In this document: one piece after another, positions 26,119-64,000 of the stretch | How positions within the stretch are numbered: the stretch's first letter is position 1 | Layout: the number at the start of each line of letters is the position of its first letter | Assembly (NCBI GenBank): GCA_001599915.1 | Contig: BCIG01000021.1 | Coordinates: 516,536-580,535, forward strand | Length of the DNA: 64,000 nucleotides | Direction of reading: 5' to 3' | DNA from: Symbiotaphrina buchneri | Taxonomy: Eukaryota; Ascomycota; Symbiotaphrinales; Symbiotaphrinaceae | Notes under the pieces: generated by a model | The model's input: only the letters and a program-made list of their open reading frames with translations | The model's database searches: none | Told to the model about the DNA's origin: nothing | Made by a program: the position numbers and the translations under genes

Positions 26119-27463
26119 ATGGCCCCATCTGTCGCCCAGCTGCCGGTGTCGACTGCGACACCAAACATCACCTCTTTGAGAGATGGTCTTTCGAAGGTCG
26201 AAATAACGGCGGTTGAAGCCCCGCCGTCGCCCAAGATCAAAAGGCAGATCGATGAGGAAGGCGGGGAAGACTACAGCATCGGTAAGTCACTGATTGTCCA
26301 ATTCACTGTTAGCAATGTTCTAAAAGTGCACCGCACCAGTACCCTCAATATCTCCCAACCTGGGATCCATCGGAGAAATACCCTCCTCTAGAGCCCTTCG
26401 AGCACATCGAGCGCGGTATCGGCGCCGATCCAACCTTCAAAGATCTCCTGCCCGATGGCAGCAAGATCCAAAAGTTAACGCCGACTACTGGCTCCGAAGT
26501 CCACGGCGTGCAGCTGAGCAAGCTCACCGCCCCGGGCCGGGACCAACTCGCGCTGCTCGTCGCGCAACGCAAGGTCGTCGCCTTCCGAGACCAAGACTTC
26601 GCCGACCTGCCCGTCGTGGACGCTTTGGAATTCGGCAGCTACTTCGGACGACACCACATCCACCCGACGAGCGGGGCGCCCGAGGGGATCCCCGAGTTCC
26701 ATCTCGTGCACCGTTACGGCGGCGGCGGCGAGTTCGACCGCTTCCTGCAGAACAAGAATAGCAGCGCTAGCTGGCACTCGGATGTGACGTACGAGTTGCA
26801 GCCGCCGGGAACGACATTCCTTATTATCTATGACACGCCTGAGGCGGGCGGCGATACGCTGTTTGCGAACCAGGTTGAGGCTTATAATCGCCTCTCGCCG
26901 GCGTTGAAGGAGCGCCTGCATGGGCTGAAGGCGGTGCATTCGGGGTTCGAGCAGGCGCAGTTCAGTCGTGACCGTGGGGGCATTGTGAGGAGGGAACCGG
27001 TCCAGCATGAGCATCCCATTGTGCGCACGCATCCCGCAACTAGGGAGAAGGCGTTGTTCATCAACGGCGGATGTGAGTATTGACCATACCGATATGGATA
27101 CATCAGCTGTTAATTTGTGCCTTTATAGTCACTCGCAGCATCGTGGGCCTGAAGAAAGAGGAGAGCGATGCTCTCCTGTCTTTCCTGCTCACTCACATCT
27201 CACGAGGTATTGATTGGCAAGCCAGAGTCCGCTGGGCCCCCAAGACCGTCGTAGTGTGGGATGTGAGTCGAAGTGACACCTTCCTCGAACAAACAATAGT
27301 GTTAATAAGCCGCTTCTAGAATCGTGTTACGGTCCATTCGGCCACGTTGGACTGGAATACTGGCGAACGTCGCCATCTGGCGAGGATAACACCACAAGTG
27401 GAACGTCCCTATGAGACTCCATACGTCCTTGAAGCCGCAAAGGACACAACTTCGAAGGATTAG
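26119..27463 (+). CDS. TauD/Jlp1-type 2-oxoglutarate dioxygenase (phase clash at intron 1)
   Basis: Fe(II)/2-oxoglutarate oxygenase, probably a sulfonate or alkylsulfate dioxygenase releasing sulfite or sulfate. The facial triad is visible: WHSDVTYE (HxD) and the distal His in NRVTVHSATLDW, with the oxoglutarate arginine in GERRHLARIT. Other landmarks are YLPTWDPSEKYPPLEPFEH, RKVVAFRDQDFADLP and FGRHHIHP. Introns at about 27072-27126 and 27263-27319 join in phase and the stop is 27461-27463. Intron 1 is odd: the strong donor (G|GTAAG at 26282) leaves phase 1, but the only good acceptor (CAG at 26337-26339) opens YPQYLPTW in phase 0. No other AG fits. There is either a 1-nt lesion in the first exon or an unusual splice. 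Confidence 0.83.
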
Positions 27464-45485: not shown

Positions 45486-46900
45486 ATGAATTCCTCCCGT
45501 CGCACAAAAGGAACTGAAACCCGCCGAAAGCGCATCCTGACCGCTGCGCGACGGGAACAGAATCGTGTTGCGCAGAGGGCGTATCGTTAGTGCTCATCCC
45601 TGCGCAGCATTGTGCATCAACAGACTCAGTTAGCTCACTGGATGGTGCAGGGCAGAGGCAGAGGGAGTGCAGGCAACGCCGAGAAGGCAGTACTAATGTT
45701 GAATTGAGGCATCGCCAACTTCGGCCTCGGGATGGTAGAGATGGTGTTTGGGCATGTACAGGGAAGCCGGCCTCTGAGCGACGACCGACCGACTCCCCGC
45801 CCCGGTCCGGGTTAGTAGGGATAGGAAGAAACGTGAAGAGCTTACCACCGTGTGATACGTTTGAGCTGCATTCGCTGCTGGTTGCTACCACCTCGTTCTT
45901 GTCCAGGGTGGATGGGGCTTTCAAAGGAAATTCAGACCCTCGATCAGTTCAGTCGTCAAGCCCGTTCTCATTCCTTTCATCACACTCGCTGAACGAACCA
46001 TTTTCGGATGACGATTCTCCCACTCTCTTCATGGCCCAATTCGGCAGTCCTTTCTCAACAGACTTCCTCACCGAGTTGTCTTCAGAGGATTCGTTTCTCG
46101 GTTTCTTTGACAGTGGCTTCCCCAACACTCATCCGGAGCGCGAGCTACAGGATGAAGCACCGGTTCTTCCCTCAGCGTCCGTTCAGGATTGCACTTTATA
46201 CGGGACCAATTCCCGCTCGTGTCGCCCAGGTAGCAAGGACGATGGACACTTAAACCACTCCATAACTGCGACGAATGCGGCACCAGGCACCGGCGATGCG
46301 ATGTACGCCGAAAGTGGCTTCCCACCTCTCCAACCAGTCACACACTCTGCCCTACCAGACCCGTACTCCAACTCCCTCAACACGCCGCTCCTCAGCACCT
46401 TCACCGCTCTTCTCCACAACGCGCATTGTCTCGGTCTCCAAATCCAAGACCTGATCACCCGCTCCTGTCCCTCGCCCTTCCACCTTCCCACCACAACCGT
46501 CTCCGACTCCCCCGCCGCGCTGCTCGCCGCCGCAACAGCGTCGACCAATCCTTGCCTCCCGTCGCATCTACAGCCAACACTACCGCAGATCCTGTTCCCG
46601 CATCATCCGTGTTTCGATCTCCTCCCGTTCCCGGTGCTGCGTGCAAGAGCGATTACGTTGGCGGCGACCAGCTCGGGGGGAACCGGGGGGTTTGATATTC
46701 TGGAGCTGAAGAGGGATGTGGTTGAGGAGGGGATTATGTTTGTGGGTGTTGGGAAGGGAGGAGGGGGAGTGCCGTGGGATAGAAGAAGTTGGGAGGTTAA
46801 GCCGTGGTTTGTGAAGAAGTGGCGCTTGTTGCTTGATGATGATGGTGATGGTGATGGTGAGGGCTGGTTGCGGACGGTGGGAGAAGGGCATCTTGTATAG
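45486..46900 (+). CDS. bZIP-type transcription factor with DUF3425-like C-terminus
   Basis: Exon 1 (45486-45585) encodes MNSSRRTKGTETRRKRILTA then ARREQNRVAQRAYR. A 65-nt intron (45586-45650) follows, and exon 2 continues QRQRECRQRREG. NRVAQRAYR is the bZIP DNA-contact motif (N-x7-R). The usual leucine heptads are not visible after the basic region. The middle is Ser/Pro-rich and acidic. The C-terminal part has LLHNAHCLGLQIQDLITRS and HPCFDLLPFPVLRARAI, as in fungal proteins of the DUF3425 type, then DRRSWEVKPWFVKKWRLL. Likely nuclear regulator; about 450 residues. Target unknown. The frame is intact. Confidence 0.83.
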
Positions 46901-48340: not shown

Positions 48341-50637
48341 TCATCTGAACTCGGGTTCCGTCATCCCCATAAACATGTCCCCGATTGCATCCCAGTCCAT
48401 CCAGGGAAGATACGACGCATCCATATCTGTGAAAGCGTCGAAAGAAAGTTCGGCCGCGCCCTGCTGCTGTATAGCCAGGTGTACGGCGTGGCCCGAACCC
48501 TCTGCGTAATCCGCCATGCACTCTTCATTTCCGACTGGACCGGCGAATCCGCCGTCCTCTTGCGCCAGAGGCGGGACATTGATTGCTTCCTCGCCCGTCT
48601 GCCTCCTCGCTGCCATTTCCGAAAACTCCACCTCCCACGTCTCTCTCCCCGCACCACGCTCCAGATGGGTCTTCTCTAGCCGCGAAGTAAAGCCCTCGAC
48701 CTTCCTATGCAAATCCACGACGATATCCGCCCACCTCCTCATCGTGCCAGGCATGCGCTTGCCCTCCTCCCTCTCCAGCGCCAGAAACGCCGCCGCCTCG
48801 CGCAGCAAGCGCCGCGCCTCAACGCCACCTCCGCGCCGCCGTTGCCCTCCATCTCGGCGCGCACGATACACAGCGTCAGAACCAGCGCCGCAGAGTACAT
48901 AAAGAAGACGTCCCACCACGTGCAGCTGTTGAACCGCCCCAGCGCCCGCAGCCGCAGCAGCAGTTCGCACGCTGTCTGCCCGGATGAGACGCAGAGGTCC
49001 ACCATGGGCATGGCTGTGGGCGCGGGTGTGGATGCCGGCTGCGGCGCACCACCGCCGGCTGAGCTGGTGCCGGGACTGCTGCGGATGACCTGGCACAGCA
49101 GCGCGGTGCGCGTCAGCAGGCACACCGTGTAGTGATACTGGACATGCAGAAGCAGAACCGGCCGCTGGAACGCGGGGGGCAGGAACGGCACGCCGTCCGC
49201 GCGAAGATAAGCCGGCAGGCTGGTGTGCCATTGTTTGAGATCGCGCAGCAGCGACGCCGTCGGCGAGAGGATCCCCGCCTCGATGTTGCTCCCCCCGCTC
49301 AGCATGCTCGCCCGCCGCCGCGCGGAGCGGTTGCTCTTCATCGTGCGGCACACGGCGCCCAGCAGCGTGGCCAGCCGGTTCGAGAACGCCGTGTGGTCCG
49401 GCGGTAGGTGCGCGCCGAGCCCTAGCAGGGACTCGCTCGGGCTCCCGATGGAGCAGGCGGCGTCGTCGATGGCGCTGGGCCGGTCGTGCGAGGAGACTTG
49501 CATCTGCTCGAATGCGTACAGTGTCCACCACACCCGCTTGCGCAGGTCCCGCACTAGCGGTGTGGTGCTGGTCGCCATGGTCGTGTCGTCCCGGTGCAGC
49601 CCGATGGCGAAGGCGACGCGCACGGCGGCGCCCGTGAAGGTCCAGCAGGCGTCCCGGTGCGAGGTGTTGTATAGGTGCAGGCTGGCGAGCAGGAGGGTCT
49701 GTACGGTCGCGAGAGAGGAGATGCACAGCACTGTGGAGAGGAGGGAGAGCGCGGTGGCCCACCAAGCGTCGGCTTGTGCGTTGGGAGGCAGCTGTGGACA
49801 ATTCCGGTAGCTGATCACCAGGACGCACAGCAGGCTGCAGGTGAAGGTGGGATCCGTCGCGGCGCGGTCGTCGATCCAGCGCTCGTAGCTCTCGCGGAAG
49901 GACGCTTCATGGAAGATGGGGAAGTCGCCATGGATCGTGGCGAAAAAATTATCCACCAATGTCTGCGACACTGCTCTGGGGATGAATGACTCGTCGAACC
50001 GGATCGTGCTGGACGCCGAGAGCACGCTGTCGGTTGGAGACCCCAGCTGCGCCGACGCCTTCTCTGGCGCTTCCGACCGATCGTCCAACGTCTGGCACAG
50101 CTCGCCGTCTTCGTCCTGAAACGACCTCTCCGAGAAGAGTTTCCGCAGCTTCGTCATGAAGAAATACGAGCTCTCCGGGCCGATATACTGCGTGCGCCCG
50201 CGCGCATCCTGTAACAACCTCTCCGCGCCCTCCGCAGGCACCGCCTCCCCCTCCGCGGCAGCCATCCTCTCTCCGCCCTCCTCCTCTACGGGCATCGGGA
50301 TACCAAGCCCATTCCCCAACTCCCGCATCTTGTCGACGCTCGACAAATCCGCTTCCGGGATCAGGCCCTTGACCAGGCTCTCGAGCGACGCGATGCGCAT
50401 CTCCAGCCCCTCCACGCTGCCCCGGAACAGCCGCTTGCGCGGCTTTGTGGTTAGGCACTCGACCTCTAGCATGGTGCAGTACCGGCATGGCGCTTGGTTG
50501 TTGGCCCGCAGGCATTTTTGCTTCCGGGACCGGCAGCGGTCGCAGCTGATCTCGGCCCGCTTGCGCTGGTCGGGTGGCACGCGCCGTTTGTGCACGTTGG
50601 CGTTGGGTAGGAGCGGGAGGCTGGAGAGGAGATCCAT
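48341..50637 (-). CDS. Zn2Cys6 transcription factor with fungal-specific TF domain (C-terminal frameshift)
   Basis: Nuclear regulator. The zinc cluster spans Cys32-Cys61 (SCDRCRSRKQKCLRANNQAP, CRYCTMLEVEC; C-x2-C-x6-C-x8-C-x2-C-x6-C). A coiled-coil-like linker follows (GLEMRIASLESLVKGL). The regulatory domain is long and clean: HGDFPIFHEASFRESYERW, LLLASLHLYNTSHRDACW, AFAIGLHRDDTT and RKRVWWTLYAFEQMQVSSHD. At about 48815-48830, after AEMEGNGGAEV, this frame turns to Arg-rich nonsense, while the -1 frame continues EARRLLREAAAFLALEREEG, WADIVVDLHRKVEGFTSRLE and on to 48341. One missing base explains it. A 41-nt GT-AG interval could also, but is too short to be comfortable. It heads the catabolic cluster. 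Confidence 0.82.
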
Positions 50638-51099: not shown

Positions 51100-52938
51100 C
51101 TACGCATGACCAGCCACAGCGCCAATCTTCCCCCGCTGCCTGATCTGCGGGCCCTTCCACATCAACACGCCCACGCAGAAAGGAAACAAGGCTACGGGGA
51201 GCACTGCATAGACAATATACGGCACCTTCGGACCATCCGCATCGATCCAGATGGAGGTCCAGAAGATCGGTCCAAAAGCCACGGCGTTCCGCAGCGATTG
51301 GACGACCAGTGCGACCTCGGTGTTGTACTCGGGATAACAGTCCACCATGTACGTCATCAACGTCGTCAGCAGGATCTCCTGCCCGAAGACGAAAAATGAT
51401 ATCCCCGCCAGTGCGGCGGCCCAGCCTGTGGGGTATTGTAGTTCCAGGCCGTAGAGGAGCATGCCGAGCTAGGATATGTCAGTAGGTTGTTCGTGCCGCA
51501 AAAGAGGAGGGCAGCACTCACAGGTATGGCAACGACACCCGTCCAACAAACCTTGAGCATCTTCTCCGGCACCCAAACCTCCCCCTTCCTTAGACTCCGT
51601 TGGGCGACCAGATCACACAGCGGGCCCGCAAGGAACTCACCCAGGACCGCGCCAATCAGGCCTGAGAAGGAACAATACCCGACCTGCTTCGTCGTGAAGT
51701 TCCAGTGCGTGCCCTTGCCGAAGTTCAGCGGGAACCCCGCCGTGTTGGCGACTTCGGTCATGGCGGCCACGGCGAACCAGAATGACGGAAGCACGACAGC
51801 CGGGTAGGAGAACATGACGAAGGGCCGTGTGAAGGTGTATGCCAGGCTGTGGTTCTCGGGATTGGAGGGCTTGCGGAAGCCCAGGCGTGAGCTCAGTGAC
51901 TTATTTCCTATCCCTGTGAGGTCGCGCGCTGGATCGACGGAGCGGTCGTAGATGGTCTCCGGGACTGGGCCAAGCTGTCAGTGATCATCTCCTGCACAAG
52001 ACGGAAAAGCTCGAATGCCTTATGCCTTTACATACCGAATAAAATCTGCGCCACGAGAAGTGCGCCATACATGATCGCCGCGACCCACATCGACCAGCGC
52101 CAGCCCAAGCTGGGACTATTCTGAATCGCGCCGCCGGCCACACCGCCCGCGTACGGCGAGCAGATAAGCAAGAACGTATTGACGCCCATGCGCTTGCCGC
52201 GCTGGTGCAGGAAGAACATGTCGGCGATGGCGGCCGGGCCGATGCACAGCCCCGCGCAACCCCCAAAGGCCATGAACATCCGGCAGATCAGCGCCTGCGC
52301 GTACGACTGCGAGCTGGCGACCCCGATCGTGAAGACTAGCGCCATGATGTTGCCGATGATGGTCACGGGACGCCGCCCGATTCGGTGCGAGAGGGGGACC
52401 CAGAGGAAGGGGGCGATGGAGAACATGATCGTTGGAGCGGCGCCGATGTAGGTTGCTGTTGAGGAGGCGGTGTGGAACTGTGAGGGGGTTAGACTAGCTG
52501 GCCTTGCATGGCTTTGGAGTTCGGAGACTCTTACCTGTTCAGCAAGGACATGTGCACCGGGAGCCTAGAATTGGTGTTAGAACGCAGGTATAACCATCGT
52601 AACAGGGTGAACAAACAATAAGTGTTGTACAGAACTTCAACACGAAGGACATGAATGCCAGCACAATCATGGCTACATCTTTCTTCAGAGGTGACCAGTT
52701 CTATGACACCATGCCACGTTAGCAAGGCTCCACTTCCACAGGTTCTGCTTATAAGCTCTCTTACCAAGGGATCCTCCGGGTCATCGCTCGGCTGTGGGCT
52801 GAGCACAATGCCATCCTTCGTCGTCTTCAGCGACGGCGCTCTGGAGGAAGGTTGCTTCGAGCCGAGTTTCTCCGCGTCAAAATGCGCAGTCGACGAGACG
52901 TCAACCGCGTTCTCCTTGGACTCTGGCGTGTGCTGCAT
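51100..52938 (-). CDS. MFS transporter, DHA1-type
   Basis: 12-TM transporter at the left end of the catabolic cluster. Exons join in phase: DDPEDPL|NWSPLKKDVAMIVLAFMSF, a short exon APGAHVLAEQ, then FHTASSTATYIGAAPTIMFS, PLSHRIGRRPVTIIGN (motif A), GGCAGLCIGPAAIADMFF, PETIYDRSVDP, and the last exon LGMLLYGLELQYPTGWAAAL. It ends VPYIVYAVLPVALFPF then WKGPQIRQRGK. The truncated MFS gene at the right edge ends almost identically (VPYIVFALLPVALFPI, MWKGQSIRAKG), so they are paralogues. It is divergent from the first FAD monooxygenase, so import or export of the cluster substrate is likely. Frame intact. Confidence 0.87.
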
Positions 52939-53417
52939 CTTGTTGATCGTGTGTCTCAGGAGTCAATGCTTTCTTGCAGGACAACCGGGCCTTCATCATC
53001 ACGAGGTCGTTCGCAGGGATTAATATAACCATCGCGAGAGCGCCTGCCCAGACCATCGAGGCTGCTGGTGATAGCTACATTACACGAGCAGATAGTGTTC
53101 GGCCCGGGTTTAGCGCGAGGTTTTCGGCAGCTTGCTCCCGATCAGCAGCTGCTACCACTGCACGACCAGTCTAACCCCTTCTTTCGCGAGCAAGCTCCCG
53201 ATGGGATATTTAGACTTCGAATCAACGGTGCCCAGGGTCCGCGATGTTCTCAGAAATCCGCGCGACTGCTTTTTCGGCCCGTTGTCTTTTTGGGTCGGCA
53301 GGGTTCTTGTCCGCGTTTCTTAAAAAGATGGGCTCTTGTTGATATAATGAACACCAAGATTTTGCGACTGCCTGTGCCTTGTTTTGCCTAATAATCCAAG
53401 ACTCCAAGCCAAAAAAG
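52939..53417. promoter_or_regulatory. Divergent promoter, MFS transporter / FAD monooxygenase
   Basis: 479-bp shared upstream region. GCTCCCGAT occurs near 53135 and again near 53194, and TTCGGCCCG near 53098 and 53271: two pairs of direct repeats that could be regulator sites. No gene was seen. Confidence 0.45.
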
Positions 53418-54971
53418 ATGACGGTGGATGACATGTGTGGCCCGCCGAACCGTACAAGAGATATTTTGATCGTTGGCGCTGGGCTGGGCGGACTCGCTGC
53501 TGGGCTTGTGCTGGCGAGAGATGGACATCGAGTGAAGATCCTTGAGGCAGCTAAACAATTCGGAGAGGTATGGTATCTTGCCCAAATCATCAAGGCTTTC
53601 CCAACCGCAACCTAGAAGCCTACATTTCCAACTTCATATCCTGACGTGTAGCTTCCAGGTCGGAGCCGGCATCCGTCTGCCACCCAACTCCAACCGTCTC
53701 CTCTCGCGCTGGGGCATCGACCTCGCCGCCATCCGCTACTGCGTGGCAGAATACTACCATTTCCGCCGGTGGCAGGACGGCTCGACCATTCTACGCATCC
53801 CGCTCGATCAATCGCCGGAATTGTTTGGCGCGCCTTACTTTCACGTCCACCGCGCCGACCTGCACTCTGCTTTGCTGGCGAAAGCGATCGAAGCCGGAGT
53901 CACTATCGAGACGGGCGTCTCGGTCGTGAAATATGACTTCGATACGCCGAGTGTGACGGTGGAGAGCGGTGATGTTTTCAAGGCCGAGTTGATTATTGCC
54001 TGTGATGGTACGTTGCTATGAACCACCCTGTCCGGCTTTAATCAAGATGTGGAAAGCTGATATCCTGGATAGGAGTCAAATCCCTCGCGCGCTCGCAGAT
54101 GCTTCCCCACGAGATCCCACCCAACGACACCGGCGACGTCGCATACCGCATTCTGATATCGGGAGCCAAAATGCTCGAAGACCCCGACCTCGCTCCTCTC
54201 ATCATCCATCCCGGAACCACATCATGGTGCGGGCCCGATGCACATATAGTCGGGTATCCCATCCGAGCCGGGGAGTTATACAACGTCGTCGTCTGCGCCA
54301 CACGGCGGCCTGGCGAGTGCGAGACTAGCTGGATCGTGCCCGGCAGCAAGACAGACCTGGAGGAGAGGTTCGGCAGCTGGGACCCGCGCGTATGCAAATT
54401 GTTCAACTTGGCGGACGAGGTAAGAATCATCCCTTCCCGGTATCTCTTCTGAGACTGATCGCTATCTGCCCGCCAGTTCCTAAAATGGAAGCTTCACGAC
54501 GTGATGCCGCTACCATACTGGTCGCGGCCCAGCGGCAAAATCACGCTTCTCGGGGACGCCTGCCACGCCACCCTCCCCTACCTCGCACAGGGCGCCGCGG
54601 GCGCCTTCGAGGACGCCGAAACGCTATGCCACCTGCTGCGGACCGACACCCCCCTATCGACCGCGCTGCGGCTGTTCGAAGACATCCGCAAACCGCGCGC
54701 GTCCATGATCCAGGCCAAGTCCCGCGAACACCAGGGCTTGCTGCATGTGCCCGACGGCGACTTCCAGAAGAGGCGTGATGAGGCCATGCAGAAGGATGAG
54801 GGCGCGAATCCGCTTTTCTGGGGCTTTGAGGAGAGGCGGAAATGGCTCTTTGGACATGATGCGGAGGTGGCGGCACTGGAGGCGTTGGCGGGCATTATGA
54901 ATCCCGGCGTGAAGGAGGGGCTGGAGGAGGAGGTATTGGAGGGGGCGTTGGCTGCGAAATCTTCTTTGTAG
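53418..54971 (+). CDS. FAD-dependent monooxygenase, salicylate-hydroxylase-like (first copy)
   Basis: Class A flavoprotein hydroxylase using NAD(P)H and O2 on an aromatic acid. ATG 53418. The FAD motif is DILIVGAGLGGLAAGLVLAR; VGAGIRLPPNSNRLLSRWGI follows the first intron. HVHRADLHSALL is a DG/RADLH-type block. FAD-ribityl motif: KITLLGDACHATLPYLAQGA then AGAFEDAETLCHLL. Introns near 53569-53659, 54009-54074 and 54421-54477 are phase-correct. About 430 residues. It shares its promoter with the MFS transporter and is followed by the oxoprolinase. Substrate uncertain: related fungal enzymes act on salicylate, hydroxybenzoates or hydroxynicotinate. Frame intact. Confidence 0.88.
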
Positions 54972-55216
54972 ATATGAAGTCTCATTATATCGCATTCTCA
55001 ATCATACTTGCATGCAGCGTCAAGTTTCCCGGTGTATGTAGTTGTGCGGGTTTGCACAGATATCAAGTCCAAGAGCCAGGTCAAACATATTGGAAATCTC
55101 AAAAGAAGGTCACAATTACTAGCAACACATGGTAAAATATGTATTTGCTCTATATTGATATCAATGTACAAAACGCCAGCAGATGCTCATTACACAGTTC
55201 CATCTCGCCTAACTAT

Positions 55217-58200
55217 TTAATTACTGTTCTGCGTGGCATGAATCGCCGCCACACTGCCCATACCGCGCATATACGACGCGCCCTTCGCAATTCCATTCAC
55301 GACCGTCTCCAGGACTCCGTCTGGCTGACCAGGGGCACCCCACCCACCGCCTCCGGGCGTCAGGATAACCATACGATCGCCCTTCTGGGCCTGGATTGAG
55401 TTCTTCGGGCCGAGGTTGATGACGCGGTCCTCGCCATTCTTCATCTTCTTGACAAACAAGTTCAAGCCCGTGGCGCCATCGCTGCCACCATGCAGACCAT
55501 AAGGCGAGTGGACACGGCGGTCAGAGAGGATCGCCGCGGAGAGGGGTTCGCGGAACTCGATGTCCCGGATACAGCCTTCGCCGCCCTTGAAGAGCCCATC
55601 TCCACCGCTCCCGCTCCGCAGGCTGAACTCGCGCAGCAGGCACGGGTAGCGGCGCTCGAAGATCTCGCAGTCCGTGATGCGCGTGTTGGTCATGTGGACG
55701 TGCACGCCAGAGGTGCCGTGCCAGCCGGGCCCGGCGCCGGCGCCGCCCGCCAGCGTCTCGTAGTAGCCGTAGCCCGGGGTGTAGGTGCCGTCGGCGGCGA
55801 GTTTGGAGCTCTTGCCGAAGGTCAGGTTGTTCAAGCAGCCCTGGCTGGCGGCGCAGGCGTCGAAGGCGCGCAAGATCACGTCCGTCACGCGCTGAGACGT
55901 CACGCAGTTGCCGCCGACCACGGCCGCCTCGGCACTGGGCGACAGGATCGTGCGTGCCGGCATGATCACGTTGATGGGCGTTAGGCACCCTTGATTCAGC
56001 GGGATGTCCTCTTTGACGAGACACCGTAGCACGTAGATGATGGCGGAGTACGTCACGGATGTGGGCGCGTTGGTGCTGCCGTAGACCTCGGGCCCGGTGC
56101 CCGTGAAGTCGAAGTCGGCCGTGCCTTGCTCGCCGTTGATGGTGATCTTGAGCTTGATCGGGCTGCCGTCGTCCATGTGGTCGATGGCTTCCATTGGCTG
56201 CCCGTTGAAGCGCTTGTAGGTGTCCTTGAGCAGCCGGCGTACGGCGACCTCGGCGTTGTCTTGGATGGCTTTCATGTAAAACTGCGGGTGTATCGTTAGT
56301 TAAGTACTCGTGTGCAGTTGCGGGACGAATTACGACTTACCAGAACAGTGTCCAGACCATATTCCTTGACCAATTGTCCGATGAGGTTGATGCCCTTCTG
56401 GTTGGCTCCAGTCTGCGCGCGCAGATCCGCCAGGTTATCTGACAAGTTGCGGGCACCACTGCAGCCAGGATACTGCGCCGGCTTCTCCAGCAGATGCTCT
56501 CTCATGGCCTCCTCATTGAACTGGCCGCCCTCGACGAGCTTCACCGATTCAATAGCCGCGCCTTCCTGCCACAGCTCGGTCGAGTTGGGAGGAAGCGACC
56601 CGGCAGAGATTCCGCCGATGTCGGCATGGTGGCCTCTCGAGGCGACGTAGAAAACGATCTTTCCGTCCTTGAAGAAGGGAGTGATGACGGTGATGTCGGG
56701 AAGATGGGTGCCACCGCAGACTTGAAATGGTTAGCATGGCAATATATTGCATGGGACGACAAGCTTACTTGGATGGTTCGAGACGAGCACGTCGCCTTCC
56801 TTGAGCTTGCCTTTCCAGTGCTCGTGCTGCCAGAGCACAGCATACTGCATACTGCCCAGATGGACCGGGACGTGAGGTGCTGGACAAGCATGTTTAGCTC
56901 TTGAATCGCATACTGAGAATGTGGACACTCACCATTAGCCACAAGCCTTCCATCCTCCGAAAAGAGCGCGCAGGAAAAGTCAAGGCGCTCCTTGATGTTT
57001 GTGCTAACACTCGTCTTCTGCAACGTACGACCCATCTGCTCCGCAATACCCATAAACCGATGTCCAAACACCGACAACTGCACCGGGTCCACGACGCGCG
57101 TAGGCTGCCTTGTCAGCGACGTCGTCGAGCCGATATCGATGACAATGTGCTTGGCCAGTGTCGTCGCCGTCGCCTCAGGCGTGATGAGGATCGTCTGCGT
57201 GTTATCGATGATCATCGCCGGCCCGCGGATCTGATCGCCCGGCGAAAGCGAGCCGAGCAGATATACGGGCGTCGCCTGCCAGCCCAAATGCTCGAAGTAG
57301 ACTTGCTTGACGACCTCGACCGCCTCAGCCGATGCAGCGCGCCTTGCCAGCGTCGCCATCTCCTGCGCAGGTGAGCTCGCGCCTTCCGCACCGCTGCTCT
57401 TCCCGGTGGCGTGCACGCGCACGTCGCCCACATACACTTCACGCGGCATAGTAAAGCCGAACTCCTGCTTGTGGCGCTCGATGAACTTCGTCGCAAAATC
57501 CCAGCCGCCGTCGTCCGACTGAGCGATCATCATCAGAGTGTCGGAGCCCTCGTAGTGCATGTGCAGGTACAGCTCGTACGCGCTCTCGGCCTGCTCGTCC
57601 AGCCCCTGGCTCTGCAGCTCGGCCTCGGCCTTGGCGCGCAGCTCGGCGGCCGTTTGCTGGATCTGCGGCAGCGTCTGCTCGTTGAAGGCGCATGCTAGGG
57701 GCGCTTGTACCTCCGACACGATGTCCGCGAGTGCCATGCCGTAGGCGGACAGGATGGAGCTGAAGCGGTGCATGATCACGCGGCCGATACCCAGAGATGC
57801 GGCGATGGAGCAGGCATGTTGTCCACCGGCACCGCCGAAGACGGCGAGGTCGTGGTGCGCCGCGTCGTGGCCACGAGCTTCTGTCAGTGTCCGAATAGGC
57901 CGGCACATGGCCTCGTTGGCGACGCGCAGGAATCCCAACGCCACATCTTCGGGGGTGAGCGTCGCAGCACCGGGCGGCAGGCCAGTGTTAATCTCGGAGC
58001 AGAGCTCGTCGAAGAGCTTGCGGGTGATGGCAACATCCAACGGTTCCTTCTCGCTCTCGCCGAAGATCTTGGGGAAGTACTCGGGGACCAGCCGGCCGAG
58101 GAAGAGGTTGGCATCGGTCACCGTGAGTGGACCTCCTTTGCGGTAGGAAGCAGGGCCGGGATGTGCGCCAGCGCTTTCGGGTCCGACCTTAAATAGCCCG

Positions 58201-59439
58201 TTGGACCAGAAGAGCCGGGAGCCTCCGCCCGCCGCGACGGTGTTGATGTCAAGCTGTGGTGTTTGCAGGGCAATTCCTGCCGTCGTCGTCTCGAAGACGT
58301 GTTCGTATGCGCCGGCATACCGGGAGACATCTATCAAGGACAAAATCATCAGTAATCAAGCCCGGATTGCAAAGGTAGCTATCTTACCGGTTGAGGTACC
58401 ACCCATGTCGAAACCAATAACGGGCTTCGCAGAGTCTTTGTCGTAGGAAGTCTGTGAGTATCCGACCACACCACCCGCGGGCCCCGATAATATAGCCTTA
58501 AGTCCAGAGAACTTGCGGTAGTCTACAAGACCGCCATCGCTCTGCATGAAGTCGCATCGTGTAGTTTTGGCGTCTTCCAGATGTCCGATGAAGCCCTTTC
58601 GGAAGCCCTCGATGTACTGTTGTGTAAGCGGTGTAAGGTATGCGTCGGCGGTTGCGGACTGGCCACGGGGCGCCATCTTGATCTGTGATGTGTAAGCCCT
58701 GAAGTCCGCGAATGCTAGTGAAGAGCTTTACCATAGGCTGCAGCACTGAGCTGACAGACACGCTCATGCCCATATCCTTCGCTATCTGGGCGACGGCGAG
58801 CTCGTGCTCAGGGTATGTATAACTGTGCATGAAGCACACACTAACACTGCGGAAGCCCTCATCATAGAGCCCCTGGACCTGCTTGCGCACAGTCTGCAAG
58901 TCCGGTTTGCGCAGCACGCGCACCACTTCCTTGGACAACCCCAGCGTGAGCGCCGGGTCCGAAGTCACATCGACGACCTTCTTCTCAGGGTCCTCGGTGA
59001 AGCCTTCCAGTGTCACGCGCTCGTCCACCTCGACCACCTTCTCGTACAGCACGCCCGGCTTCGCAACCGTCAGGTCGAAGATGTCCGGCCGCGCCTGGTT
59101 GCCGATCACCAGCAGGTCCCGGAAGCCCTTGGTGATCAGCAGCGCCGAGCGCTCGCCCTTGCGCTCCAGCAGCGCGTTGGTCGCGACCGTCGTGCCCATG
59201 CGGATGCTCGACACAGACGAGAGGTCGATCGGCTCGCCGCGCGGAAGCGATACGCCATGTGCGAGCTCAAGCACCCGCCTGATGCCCTCGGTTGGGGCAT
59301 CGGCGTAGTTGGCGGGGTCGACGGAAAGGAGTTTGAGGATGATGTCGTCGTCGCGCCCGGGGATGATGGCGTGGATGTCGGTGAAGGTGCCGCCCCGGTC
59401 GATGGCGATGCGGATGCCCTTCGTTGTTGGATTGCCCAT
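55217..59439 (-). CDS. 5-Oxoprolinase / hydantoinase (HyuA-HyuB fusion)
   Basis: ATP-dependent ring-opening hydrolase of lactams, 5-oxoproline to glutamate in the classic case. The N-terminal HyuA half has [57 protein letters not shown] (across an intron) and [20 protein letters not shown]. The HyuB half has [33 protein letters not shown] (across an intron), [16 protein letters not shown] and [14 protein letters not shown]. Five short introns are all phase-correct, total about 1,300 residues, full length. Housekeeping OXP1-type enzymes exist in fungi, but here it lies between two FAD hydroxylases and a decarboxylase, so a specialised substrate (lactam or hydantoin from a heteroaromatic) is worth considering. 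Frame intact. Confidence 0.92.
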
Positions 59440-60156
59440 CTTGCTTGAAGGGTACAGCTACTACTGTACTGTGTTGACGGGTATCTTGGGTATCTTGGGT
59501 TGAGACAGGAGCAGCAGCAGCAGCTTGTGACGAGTATCTTAAAGACGAGTATCGGAAAGAGAAGCCTATCGATAAGCGGACCCCGCCTGCATCCAGGGTC
59601 TCGAGCTGCTGGCGCCTGGACGCCATGACCCTGGGTTACGGGGCTGGGCTGTCTGTATCCGCCCTCTGTAGCGCCCCGAGGAAGAGAAGGTGTGCGTCGG
59701 GTTCGCATCCCTAGACTGCTAGTGCAGCGGGCCGCGGGAACAAGTAGCCGCCTTGGCCGAGGAGCTTTACGAAGGTTAGGGCTAGGATGTCTGTAGCCGA
59801 AGCACAGCAACCCCAACAAGAACGCCAACTACGCCTATACCAATAGGGAAAGGCTGAATGATAAGAAAAGGCGCCTATGGCTCAGGGCCTGGACCCTTGT
59901 TTTGTGGCTCTCGATTTGATGATACAGGACCAGGCCTAAGATATTCCTAATTCACCCGTTTCCCACCTACCGGTACCCTACTGTTTTCGTGGTTGCCCCG
60001 GTGTCCAACAAGCAAGCTGAAAGGGTTCCCGCAAGTCAACATTGAATCACAATTTGTATGACCTCTAACGCGTTGCAGCAAGACAGAATATGTGAGAAAG
60101 GCTTTTTATTAATGATCATAAATTCGGATATATAGCTTTCCCATCAGAGCATCCGC
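59440..60156. other. Upstream region of the oxoprolinase
   Basis: 717 bases between two minus-strand genes. GTATCTTGGG is repeated in tandem at about 59480-59500, and ACGAGTATC occurs twice near 59530-59552. It holds the oxoprolinase promoter. A minus-strand open frame here overlaps the oxoprolinase 5' end and is not called. Confidence 0.5.
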
Positions 60157-61278
60157 TCATGAACCACCCTCATGCAAATGCAAAACATTAACCGCATTCC
60201 CGCCCATAATCTTCTGATACCCCTGCCCATCGCCAAACGCATCCCGCGCAGCCTTCTCATTCAGCGTGACACAGGGCCACTCCTTCATGGGCCGCACCGG
60301 GTTAAAGAACGGATGATCCGTGCCAAACATCACTCTCTCGACTCCACTCGCATCCACCGCCGCCTTCAAGCCCACCTGATCGAAAATGACTCCATCCAAG
60401 AATATATTCTTCCTCAGCACCTCCCAGATGGTCTGACGCTGGTCGTTCAGCTTCCCCTCAGCCTCCCACTTGCGATCATGCTCAATGCAAGCCTCAATCC
60501 TGCCCGCCAGGAACGGGAGCGTGCCACCACTATGCGCCACGATCATCTGCAGCTGCGGCACGGCGGCGAACGCGCCGGAGAGGAACATGCGCGCCAGCGC
60601 AATCGTCGTCTCCACCGTGAACCCGATCGAGAGCGGCAGGATCTGGCCGTAGTCCGACCCGCGGCACCCCCACACGTCCGAGGGCAGCCCGTAGTTGGGA
60701 TGCAGGAATATCGGCAGCCCCGCGTCTGCCAGCGCGGCGTATATAGGCAGGAGTTTTGGATCGTCGAGGCCGGATCCTAGCCCGCCTGTGCCCATCACGA
60801 TGCCCCGCGCGTACCGCAGCGTCTTCAACCGCCGGATCTCCTCGAGCACGACGGGTTCGGGCGCGCTGAGTGGGAGCGCGCCGAAGAAGTATAGGCGCCC
60901 CGGGTACTGGGCGCAGAGGTCGTTGGTCGAGTCGTTCAGCGTGACGGCCACGGCGCCGGCTTCAGCGGGTGGCAGGAAGTCGATCCAGGGGTTGCCGAGC
61001 GAGAGGACGGAGATGTCGATGCCGTGCGCGTCCATGAACGCGATCTTCTCCGAGACTTCGTAGAAGAAGGGCTTGAGCGGCCGGCCCGGGGGAGTGCTGC
61101 TGGCGCTGCCATTGCTGTGGGTGTTCTGCGGCGTGCGGTTGCAGAGACATAGCTCGTTGGAGGGCGGGAAGGCTTTGACGAAGGGCACTTCGCTGCGCTT
61201 CTTGAGCAGGTCGATGTAGTATGGCGGGTACAGATGTGAATGCACGTCGACGACGGGCACTTTTCGTGATGCGCTCAT
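60157..61278 (-). CDS. ACMSD-type amidohydrolase, probable decarboxylase
   Basis: Amidohydrolase_2 fold, the family of aminocarboxymuconate-semialdehyde, dihydroxybenzoate/salicylate and isoorotate decarboxylases: non-oxidative, metal-dependent. Metal ligands are visible: VVDVHSHLYPP (HxH), PIFLHPNYGLPS, IVAHSGGTLPFLAGRIE and VMFGTDHPFFNP (Asp). Single exon. The start at 61278 (MSASRKVPVVDVHSH) gives 373 residues, normal length. The frame extends to 61428 and that extension looks like a mitochondrial presequence (SLLPSLPRGFRWKASRFTIA), so a longer form is possible. Divergent from the second FAD monooxygenase. The pair decarboxylase plus hydroxylase argues for catabolism of an aromatic acid. 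Substrate unproven. Confidence 0.88.
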   Translation of the reverse strand: MSASRKVPVVDVHSHLYPPYYIDLLKKRSEVPFVKAFPPSNELCLCNRTPQNTHSNGSASSTPPGRPLKPFFYEVSEKIAFMDAHGIDISVLSLGNPWIDFLPPAEAGAVAVTLNDSTNDLCAQYPGRLYFFGALPLSAPEPVVLEEIRRLKTLRYARGIVMGTGGLGSGLDDPKLLPIYAALADAGLPIFLHPNYGLPSDVWGCRGSDYGQILPLSIGFTVETTIALARMFLSGAFAAVPQLQMIVAHSGGTLPFLAGRIEACIEHDRKWEAEGKLNDQRQTIWEVLRKNIFLDGVIFDQVGLKAAVDASGVERVMFGTDHPFFNPVRPMKEWPCVTLNEKAARDAFGDGQGYQKIMGGNAVNVLHLHEGGS

Positions 61279-61885
61279 TTTGGTGGTGGTTGTGGTGTGG
61301 AGCGATGCAATTGTGAAACGGCTGGCTTTCCAGCGAAAGCCCCGAGGAAGGGATGGCAACAATGACCGCGCCAGCGTAGGGAAGCTAGATGTTGGAGCTT
61401 GAATTCGGTCCTGAGATCTCCCTATCATCGATTAGAGAAAAAGGATGTCATAGGCCTAGACTCCGATGCTGCTGATAACAATGGTCGATCTTCCTCCTAG
61501 AGGGGTCGCGCCTGGACCGTCCGCATTTCGCGAATGCGCTTGCATGCATGCGCGATCAGCAGCGCATGTAGATATCCGACACTAACCTCCCTTACTACTC
61601 AGTCTCGGCCACGCATGCTTGGTCCGATACCATCAGTCTGCTGCGGGAAATGTCCGTGTCCTACTACAGCGGGCCTCCGAAGGCAATCGATTGATCCATT
61701 TGTGGCATGCTCAGTTGGATGGCAACAACTCGCTTGCACTAAGCATAGGAGGCAGGCATAGTGCGAGATATAAGGGCGAGATTCTTAAAACTCCAAACTC
61801 TGAGATCGCCAGGCCAGCAGATCAGTGCTCCATTCTGCTTTTATTACTCAGAGGCTCCCACCGATAAGGACATCTTCGACATCTC
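61279..61885. promoter_or_regulatory. Divergent promoter, decarboxylase / second FAD monooxygenase
   Basis: About 600 bases (450 if the longer decarboxylase start is used). Purine-rich and GCATGC-like words occur near 61540-61555. No gene was seen. Confidence 0.5.
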
Positions 61886-63255
61886 ATGGGAAGCATGCCT
61901 CACCCCATCGAGCCCTCCGCGCCCCTCAAAGTCGCCGTCATCGGCGCCGGCATAGGCGGTCTCGCGCTCTGCATCGGCCTGCTGCGCGAAAATGTGCCCT
62001 TCACGCTCTACGAGGCGGCGACCGAGTTCAGCGCCGTGGGTGCAGGCGTCGGGCTGGGGCCCAACGCCATCCGGGCCATGGGCCTGATCGACGAGCGGCT
62101 GGTGCCGCTGTACCACGGCATCTCGTCCGGGAACCTGACGCCCAACAAGGAGCACGTCATGTTCGACGCGCTGTACGCCGAGGAGGGCTTCGGGGAGAAG
62201 CGCGGCTGGAAACCCGCCCCCTATGGCGCGCCCTGCTACCTCCGCACCAGCGCCCACCGCGTCGATCTCCTGAATATCATGACCAGCCTGATCCCGATGG
62301 AGAACGTGCGGTTCAACAAGCGCGTCAAGAGCATGACGCAGCTGGAGGACAAGGTCGTCGTGGAGTTCGAGGACGGCGAGGTCGTTCAGGCCGCGGCCGT
62401 GGTGGGCTCCGACGGCGTCAAGGGTCCGACCCGCGCTGCGGTGCTGGGCGACAAGTATCCCGACCAGGTGCAGGCCACCTACAGCGGGAAATACGTCTAC
62501 CGCTCCATCATCCCCATGAAGGACGCTATTGAGATCATCGGCGAGCAGAACGCAGGCGACGCTCGCAGCTTCCTCGGCCATAACGTTAATTTTATCACGT
62601 TTCCCATCTCCCGCGGCACCCAGTGCAACCTGGTTGCTTTCAAGTGGGACGATAAGCCCTGGACGCATGATCAGTGGACGAAGAAGGTCAGCCGCGAGGA
62701 GATGCTCGCAGACTTTGAGACGGGAGTCGATAAGCGGCTGGTGAAACTGCTCGACGTAAGTTGCAAAATCACCCTCCGACACCCGTCTTTGCTCCTGAGC
62801 AATGCTAATACCCTGGGCAGTGGGCAGTCCCGCTCCAATGGTCTCTCCATCACCACATGAACACCCCCATCTACTACAACCATCGAATCTGCCTCCTCGG
62901 GGACTCAGCACACGCAACGACGCCGCACCAAGCCTCCGGTGCCGGCCAATGCATCGAAGACGGGTTGATCCTCTCCAAGCTCCTCGGGCTCGTCAAGCAA
63001 CCAAAGCAGATTGAGGCCGCGTTCGCAGTGTATGACTCTATCCGGAGGCCACGGGCGCAGAAGGTGGTCAAGACCAGCCAGGAAGCTGGACGGTTGTATA
63101 CTTTTGGGGACCCGGAGGCAGGAGAGGATATGGAGAAGATCGTGGAGAACCTTAATAACCGCTTCTTGTGGATCTGGGAACATGACCTTGAAGGAGATGT
63201 TAAGAAGGCAGAATCGGAGTTTAGGGCTCGGGCAGTGGAGGCGAAGCTGGCGTGA
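61886..63255 (+). CDS. FAD-dependent monooxygenase, salicylate-hydroxylase-like (second copy)
   Basis: Class A flavin hydroxylase. The FAD motif is VAVIGAGIGGLALCIGLL, then VGAGVGLGPNAIRAMGLIDE, which is more typical of salicylate 1-monooxygenase than the first copy. RTSAHRVDLLNIM is the DG/RxDL block, followed by VVGSDGVKGPTR. One intron (62757-62819) joins KRLVKLLD to WAVPLQWSLHHH. The ribityl motif is RICLLGDSAHATTPHQASGA, then GQCIEDGLILSKLL. Ends RARAVEAKLA. About 435 residues. Only moderately similar to the first copy, so likely a different step. Frame intact. Confidence 0.9.
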
Positions 63256-63791
63256 TGTTGTGGTGCTTTTCTAGAATTATGTTTAATGTACTGTTGGGGT
63301 CTGTCTTTGGCTATGGAGCATGTGAAGAAGTCGGAGAACAAGGCATTGAACATATGTAATGCACAACTGTATAGAGCATAGCTTGAGAATCATTGTTTCT
63401 GGTACTATAGTGCGTAAGGCCCAGATCTTCTATTGTTGCAATCCCCCGAGTTGTCAAGTTTTCCGAATTTTCTAAGTGTGCGCCTTCGGAGGGGAAATTT
63501 GGACTTTGGATCTGCAGTACGCAGTTATTGAGCAGGCACAATTTCTAAACACACAAAGGCCTTGATAGAATTCCATTCCCAAAAACAGAATCGTCTTCCC
63601 GCTTGTTTCCAAGGTTCTACTCCAAATAATTTATACACATGACGACCGCTGGACAGAGAGTCTTCTGCAACACACAATACTCTCCTCCTCTACCCAACAC
63701 AAAAGAAAATTCTAGGCTCTCCTGACCTTCCCCATTCTCTCAGCAACTCCCCATCCCTAGCTTCCCACAAGAGTGGTAGGGCTCCCAGCAC
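63256..63791. other. 3' intergenic region
   Basis: 536 bases between convergent gene ends; AT-richer, with no gene or repeat recognised. Confidence 0.5.
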
Positions 63792-64000
63792 TCAAAACCG
63801 GAACAAGCCACCCTTCGCACGAATCGACTGGCCCTTCCACATAAAGAGTCCAATTCCAATCGGGAACAGGGCAACAGGCAGAAGTGCAAAGACGATATAC
63901 GGCACCTAGAAGGAGCATGACGGGGTCCGGGTTTGGCGGCAGAATCGACGGCCTCGCCGGCGGGGAGCCAATGGGCGGGCCGGACGCGAAGGCGGTGGCC
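63792..64000 (-). CDS. MFS transporter, C-terminal fragment (gene continues beyond window)
   Basis: The last exon on the minus strand reads VPYIVFALLPVALFPIGIGL, FMWKGQSIRAKGGLFRF and stops at 63792-63794. This closely matches the C-terminus of the transporter at 51100-52938, so a DHA1-type paralogue starts right of the window. Upstream, AFASGPPIG is legible near 63970-64000. An intron boundary (CTAG) lies just before VPYIV at about 63910. Only about 60 residues are visible. Confidence 0.72.

Follow-up and report, generated by a model that had tools for sequence, protein, structure and literature searches.

Introduction

Fungi salvage thymine through thymine-7-hydroxylase and isoorotate decarboxylase (IDCase). 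To our knowledge, IDCase has been described only as the enzyme of the last step of this salvage and as a model for the chemistry of DNA demethylation and for carboxylation. Here we describe a gene group from the ascomycete Symbiotaphrina buchneri in which an additional IDCase, called IDCase1, lies among two class A flavin monooxygenases (FMO1 and FMO2), a fused protein of the 5-oxoprolinase/hydantoinase family (OPLAH), MFS carriers and a Zn2Cys6 regulator. The group is found at 48.3-63.3 kb of the window, by which we mean the whole stretch of DNA that was analysed, namely the final 64 kb of contig BCIG01000021.1 (C21) in an assembly of 23.4 Mb and 82 contigs. We tentatively propose, with somewhat less than even confidence, that this is a pathway-specific catabolic or detoxification gene set for a carboxylated N-heteroaromatic or aminoaromatic acid. 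At the sequence level, this proposal draws on the presence of four enzyme families, on intact catalytic residues in IDCase1 and OPLAH, on intact FAD motifs in both FMOs and on the position of a duplicate IDCase outside the thymine-salvage locus.

The hxn nicotinate regulon of Aspergillus nidulans offers a fungal precedent for such a cluster: its description (PMC9304392) mentions two FMOs, of which one decarboxylates, along with a ring-opening hydrolase, two transporters and a single pathway regulator. The S. buchneri group resembles it in having two FMOs, a candidate ring-opening hydrolase, transporters and a regulator, but neither a cyclic imidase such as HxnM nor a nicotinate hydroxylase such as HxnS was found among the cluster genes scanned. 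Furthermore, FMO2 is salicylate-hydroxylase-like, whereas HxnV is described in that text as phenol-2-monooxygenase-like, and ring opening by the S. buchneri set would be ATP-dependent. A second similar system is the four-gene salicylate-induced cluster AN2114-AN2118 of A. nidulans (PMC7842363), which includes a putative salicylate 1-monooxygenase, a decarboxylase-like amidohydrolase and a DUF3425 gene, all three having counterparts in or beside the locus studied here. Its amidohydrolase is, however, OrsB/DhbD-like and not an IDCase, and neither an oxoprolinase nor a second FMO is listed for it. Finally, two bacterial systems, the caprolactamase CapAB and IaaCE, a lactamase of the same family for which opening of an indole-derived lactam has been proposed (PMC8453981), resemble OPLAH. 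Among the papers listed by searches of an open-access library, no title or abstract opening described a fungal cluster combining an IDCase, an FMO and an oxoprolinase.

Results

Gene content and layout of the group

Spliced gene models were built with GT-AG introns of 48-91 nt, and Pfam family searches, which covered 14 window proteins, confirmed the family of six members of the group (the regulator, MFS1, FMO1, OPLAH, IDCase1 and FMO2). The features are the following.

48341-50637, minus strand: Zn2Cys6 transcription factor with Zn_clus and Fungal_trans domains (Pfam on open reading frame 48742-50637, reading frames)
51100-52938, minus strand: MFS1, 503 aa, 6 exons, MFS_1 family (gene model, Pfam, NCBIfam)
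52939-53417, no strand: divergent promoter of MFS1 and FMO1, 479 bp (gene models, motif test)
53418-54971, plus strand: FMO1, 446 aa, 4 exons, class A flavin monooxygenase (gene model, Pfam, PDB comparison)
55217-59439, minus strand: OPLAH, 1318 aa, 6 exons, fused HyuA and HyuB, 5-oxoprolinase/hydantoinase family (gene model, Pfam, active-site alignment)
60157-61278, minus strand: IDCase1, 373 aa, single exon, uracil-5-carboxylate (isoorotate) decarboxylase family, Amidohydro_2 (Pfam, PDB comparison, active-site residues)
61279-61894, no strand: divergent promoter of IDCase1 and FMO2, 616 bp (gene models, motif test)
61895-63255, plus strand: FMO2, 431 aa, 2 exons, salicylate-hydroxylase-like class A flavin monooxygenase (gene model, Pfam, PDB and NCBIfam comparison)
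63792-63905, minus strand: MFS2, final 37 codons only, the remainder lying past the contig end (open reading frame, genome search, alignment to MFS1)

An initial reading of the window from its letters and open reading frames (hereafter the sequence-only reading) had described seven neighbouring genes with two divergent promoters. Six of these genes and both divergent gaps stand, while the seventh is represented only by the tail of a carrier gene. Since the contig terminates at window base 64000, the right edge of the cluster is out of view.

IDCase1 and the second isoorotate decarboxylase of the genome

Among PDB entries, IDCase1 matches the uracil-5-carboxylate decarboxylases 4hjw (441 bits) and 4hk5 (413 bits) and is 52% identical to each of these crystallised enzymes. 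The sequence-only reading had taken it for an "ACMSD-type" decarboxylase, which is the wrong subfamily, the best ACMSD chain reaching 94 bits versus 441 for isoorotate decarboxylase. According to a published study (PMC6305744), the IDCase active site includes the metal ligands His12, His14, His195 and Asp323, the carboxylate binders His251 and Arg262, the residues Arg68 and Asn98 that recognise the uracil ring, and Phe222, Phe326 and Phe327. All 11 of these residues are kept in IDCase1, where, by alignment, His13, His15, His193 and Asp321 correspond to the metal ligands, His249 and Arg260 to the carboxylate binders and Arg66 and Asn96 to the uracil-recognising pair. IDCase1 thus resembles the decarboxylase of fungal thymine salvage; it belongs with the isoorotate decarboxylase family and is predicted to convert isoorotate to uracil. 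Since the uracil-recognising residues are kept, an N-heterocycle is favoured over a phenolic acid as its substrate. The same source reports that IDCase was inactive on the o-hydroxybenzoic acids tested, which, provided that this property carries over to IDCase1, likewise points to a heterocyclic and not a phenolic substrate.

A genome search revealed one further IDCase, on contig C2 (L054:4187-5332), which divergently adjoins a homologue of thymine dioxygenase (match to 5c3p, E 4e-123), so that the two look like a thymine-salvage pair. Over a core of 201-202 residues, the C2 enzyme is 65.7% identical to 4hjw and IDCase1 57.9%. Because the C2 copy is nearer to 4hjw and sits beside the thymine dioxygenase homologue, IDCase1 appears to be the extra and more diverged copy. 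In contrast to the thymine-salvage arrangement, IDCase1 sits with FMOs and OPLAH.

One scan of bacterial genome contigs yielded no counterpart of the cluster: it returned two distant IDCase relatives (35-36% identity), and the six cluster proteins compared matched the decarboxylase alone at both loci. A plasmid scan for IDCase relatives gave 307 records, all below 60% identity, and one scan of viral contigs gave 66 pattern matches and no relative.

Two class A flavin monooxygenases

The presence of two FAD hydroxylases, claimed in the sequence-only reading, is borne out by Pfam and PDB matches and by intact GxGxxG, DG and GD motifs in both FMOs (GAGLGG, ACDG and GDACH in FMO1), which are 26-29% identical to each other. 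FMO1 is close to PDB entries 8gsm (4-hydroxybenzoate decarboxylase, 322 bits), 8r2t (309 bits, named FAD-binding domain-containing protein, a name that gives no function) and 8x38 (decarboxylative vanillate 1-hydroxylase, 300 bits). Among solved relatives with a named function, it thus comes closest to the hydroxylases that decarboxylate 4-hydroxybenzoate and vanillate, and it may have a decarboxylating activity itself. In FMO1, His224 and Tyr228 occupy the positions of a His/Tyr pair of 6-hydroxynicotinate 3-monooxygenase, which we take, by an inferred numbering offset, to be His211/Tyr215, described in PMC9304392 as substrate-binding residues kept in HxnX. Since the same pair also occurs in 8gsm, 8r2t, 8x38 and tropone 2-monooxygenase, it is not specific and does not discriminate between phenols and pyridines.

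The closest matches of FMO2 are NahG-type salicylate hydroxylases; further matches are the tailoring monooxygenases sorC, afoD and tropB. The best NCBIfam models are 3-hydroxybenzoate 6-monooxygenase for FMO1 (NF006021, 254.8 bits, cut-off 459) and salicylate 1-monooxygenase for FMO2 (TIGR03219, 280.3 bits, cut-off 446), and both proteins have a sub-threshold match to the HpxO model. Neither FMO attained the cut-off of any of the 25 NCBIfam families shown for it, and we therefore claim no substrate for either.

A complete fused oxoprolinase-family protein

The call of an oxoprolinase in the sequence-only reading holds: Hydant_A_N, Hydantoinase_A, Hydant_A_C and Hydantoinase_B follow one another in a single chain, so that OPLAH is a complete fused HyuA-HyuB protein. 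In bacterial caprolactamase, according to PMC8453981, mutants in D11 or D295 of CapA retained only traces of activity, and mutants in D41, H99, D102 or H124 of CapB had none. OPLAH has all six of these residues, as Asp14, Asp328, Asp785, His843, Asp846 and His868; it differs from CapAB and IaaCE in being one fused chain and, at CapB Tyr136, in carrying Leu880. On these residues, OPLAH is judged catalytically complete and predicted to be an ATP-dependent lactamase or 5-oxoprolinase.

The sequence-only reading would have counted its proposal as refuted if the oxoprolinase were the only OXP1 homologue of the genome and constitutively expressed; the first of these two circumstances does not apply, as OPLAH has homologues elsewhere in the genome. 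Four further long loci, 52-58% identical, lie on contigs C27, C10, C5 and C19, which makes at least five long-match loci of the family, besides which C31, C3, C4 and C14 each carry a partial match and C5 has partial matches at two additional positions. Contig C19 begins inside its oxoprolinase paralogue (L058:1-4916), and the adjoining predicted gene resembles a 2OG-Fe(II) oxygenase by eye.

Co-location of the enzymes

We estimated the probability that at least two FMOs and at least one OPLAH lie within 12 kb of a random point at about 8e-7, under a uniform null over 23.4 Mb; the calculation was made post hoc and takes no account of a possible clustering tendency of these genes. The inputs were about 19 other FMO-like loci, with hand-taken positions among the best candidates scored, and the 4 other long OPLAH loci. 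By this post hoc estimate, co-location by chance is unlikely. Among the matches listed, no FMO or IDCase was found within 12 kb of any other long OPLAH locus, the FMO nearest to the C10 locus being about 18 kb away.

Regulator, carriers and neighbouring genes

The open reading frame of the regulator starts at 50637 on the minus strand, and its 3' part reads in a different frame. The shift lies at 48817-48882 (minus strand), where the sole intron candidate is short and weak; a short weak intron, a frame break or an assembly error are all possible explanations.

The 37 residues of the MFS2 tail include 21 that are identical to the end of MFS1, in line with the two paralogous carriers announced in the sequence-only reading, of which the second is thus seen only as this tail. 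No other contig yielded the remainder of MFS2: in a search with MFS1 that gave 69 matches (85 of 94 candidates scored), matches on other contigs were at most 35% identical over more than 80 residues.

To the left of the cluster, a Pyr_redox_2 protein (41.2-42.6 kb) and a UPF0029 protein (43.7-44.6 kb) are housekeeping-looking by Pfam. Between them and the regulator lie a DUF3425 open reading frame (45518-46897, plus strand), which may belong to the cluster, and then an open reading frame that has no Pfam match. An open reading frame of the TauD/TfdA dioxygenase family (26313-27080, plus strand) is located in a lower-GC part of the window.

Discussion

A possible route and what weighs against it

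If the group is a dedicated gene set, its substrate would be a carboxylated and oxygenated N-heteroaromatic ring, akin to a 2,4-dioxo pyrimidine or to a pyridone, or else a closely similar aminoaromatic acid. IDCase1 would strip a ring carboxylate located ortho to a ring carbonyl, with no redox step. FMO1 would then replace a second carboxylate by a hydroxyl group, or hydroxylate para to an existing one, and FMO2 would introduce a further hydroxyl group. The resulting electron-rich product might collapse or be reduced to a lactam or hydantoin, which OPLAH could open using ATP, while the MFS carriers would transport the substrate or intermediates and the Zn-cluster protein would turn the gene set on. 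This route is least secure in its step order and in its connection to OPLAH.

Several observations count against the proposal, and the first of them concern IDCase1 and OPLAH. When positions invariant in three canonical IDCase sequences (162 positions) were compared, IDCase1-specific changes were not enriched within two residues of active-site residues (7/26 near versus 29/128 far, p = 0.62), and a new substrate of IDCase1 is therefore suggested by context and not by sequence. Near L054:4505, the C2 IDCase appears to be broken by a shift of one frame, either genuinely or through an assembly error; the thymine dioxygenase frame beside it is readable. IDCase1 might then simply do the job of this thymine-salvage copy. 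As for OPLAH, it differs at only 5 of 335 positions that are invariant in its other paralogues and is the least changed of the five (17/347 for C27, 26/355 for C10, 14/341 for C5 and 21/273 for C19), in an alignment anchored on OPLAH itself, which biases the comparison in its favour. Since this paralogue comparison gave no sign of specialisation, OPLAH may serve this fungus as its ordinary 5-oxoprolinase. The idea of the sequence-only reading that the set processes an N-heteroaromatic or aminoaromatic acid agrees with the enzyme families and with the uracil-recognising residues, whereas its suggestion that the oxoprolinase opens the resulting lactam found no support, OPLAH being complete but undiverged. 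Induction data from other fungi cut both ways. In line with the proposal, a 5-oxoprolinase gene was upregulated 12-fold in A. oryzae on nicotine (PMC6346535), and oxoprolinase-type genes 3.2- and 4.0-fold in Desarmillaria tabescens on caffeine. In both cases, however, the authors ascribe this induction to glutathione, an explanation that fits a rival at least as well.

The remaining points concern the other genes and the promoters. Among the cluster genes scanned, which stop short of a right edge lying beyond the contig, there was no ring-cleavage dioxygenase, amidase or reductase. The nearest carrier models of MFS1 are of drug-efflux types and all below cut-off: multidrug superfamily 2_A_01_02 is the best NCBIfam model with 78 bits (cut-off 131), and the match to an aromatic-acid symporter model is weaker (39 bits, cut-off 419). 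No CGG/CCG dyad of the Zn2Cys6 type was common to all four promoters, the best dyad occurring in 2 of 4, a result equalled or bettered in 293 of 300 shuffled sets. No word of 8-10 bases was shared by all four promoters either; two 7-base words were, against a mean of 0.26 and a maximum of 3 over 100 shuffles, which is a weak signal.

Alternative explanations

Considering that the solved relatives nearest to both FMOs mostly use phenolic acids where a function is named, the group could instead be a funnel for plant phenolic acids, in which FMO1 (4-hydroxybenzoate/vanillate type) and FMO2 (salicylate type) would make hydroquinones or catechols and in which IDCase1 and OPLAH would serve other processes. 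The DUF3425 frame at 45.5-46.9 kb fits this explanation, since the salicylate-induced A. nidulans cluster also contains a DUF3425 gene, next to its putative salicylate 1-monooxygenase and decarboxylase-like amidohydrolase (PMC7842363). We nevertheless consider the funnel rather unlikely: a ring-cleavage dioxygenase was missing from the cluster genes scanned, neither FMO attained an NCBIfam cut-off, and IDCase1 would be left without a role although it shares a promoter region with FMO2, because published IDCase was inactive on the o-hydroxybenzoic acids tested (PMC6305744).

It is also unlikely that the group is just a loose neighbourhood, in which a housekeeping 5-oxoprolinase, a backup thymine-salvage IDCase and detoxification oxygenases happen to lie near a contig end. 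The undiverged OPLAH, the retention in IDCase1 of every IDCase residue checked, the apparent frame break in the C2 copy, the failure to find a Zn-cluster motif common to the promoters and the glutathione explanation given in reports on other fungi all suit it. Against it stand the co-location estimate, the two divergent promoter pairs and the flanking of the enzymes by a regulator and carriers, as in the hxn regulon.

The tailoring end of a secondary-metabolite cluster, with its backbone gene past the contig end, would agree with the sorC, afoD and tropB matches of FMO2, the efflux-type models nearest to MFS1, the termination of the contig inside the group and the oxoprolinase genes of predicted biosynthetic clusters in A. 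affinis relatives and Hypholoma, but it is improbable: inspection by eye of the listed open reading frames of the window showed no polyketide or peptide synthase, and the family searches covered 14 window proteins.

A more precise chemical version is an oxidative pyrimidine-5-carboxylate route in fungi, which we hold to be very improbable. IDCase1 would here yield uracil, plain or substituted, whose C5 would be oxidised by a flavin hydroxylase, as HpxO does with urate, and contraction would give a hydantoin that OPLAH would open with ATP. Pyrimidines are otherwise broken down by the reductive, Rut and URC routes, and if C5 oxidation were true, it would be a pyrimidine breakdown separate from these and from thymine salvage.

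Significance

The chief interest of the locus is an isoorotate decarboxylase sited outside thymine salvage. If the group is indeed a catabolic or detoxification set for a carboxylated N-heteroaromatic or aminoaromatic acid, it would indicate a new fungal route for N-heterocyclic acids as well as a decarboxylase of different substrate range. With a duplicated IDCase wired to hydroxylases and to an ATP-dependent ring opener, this enzyme would then have a part to play in a cluster serving catabolism or detoxification.

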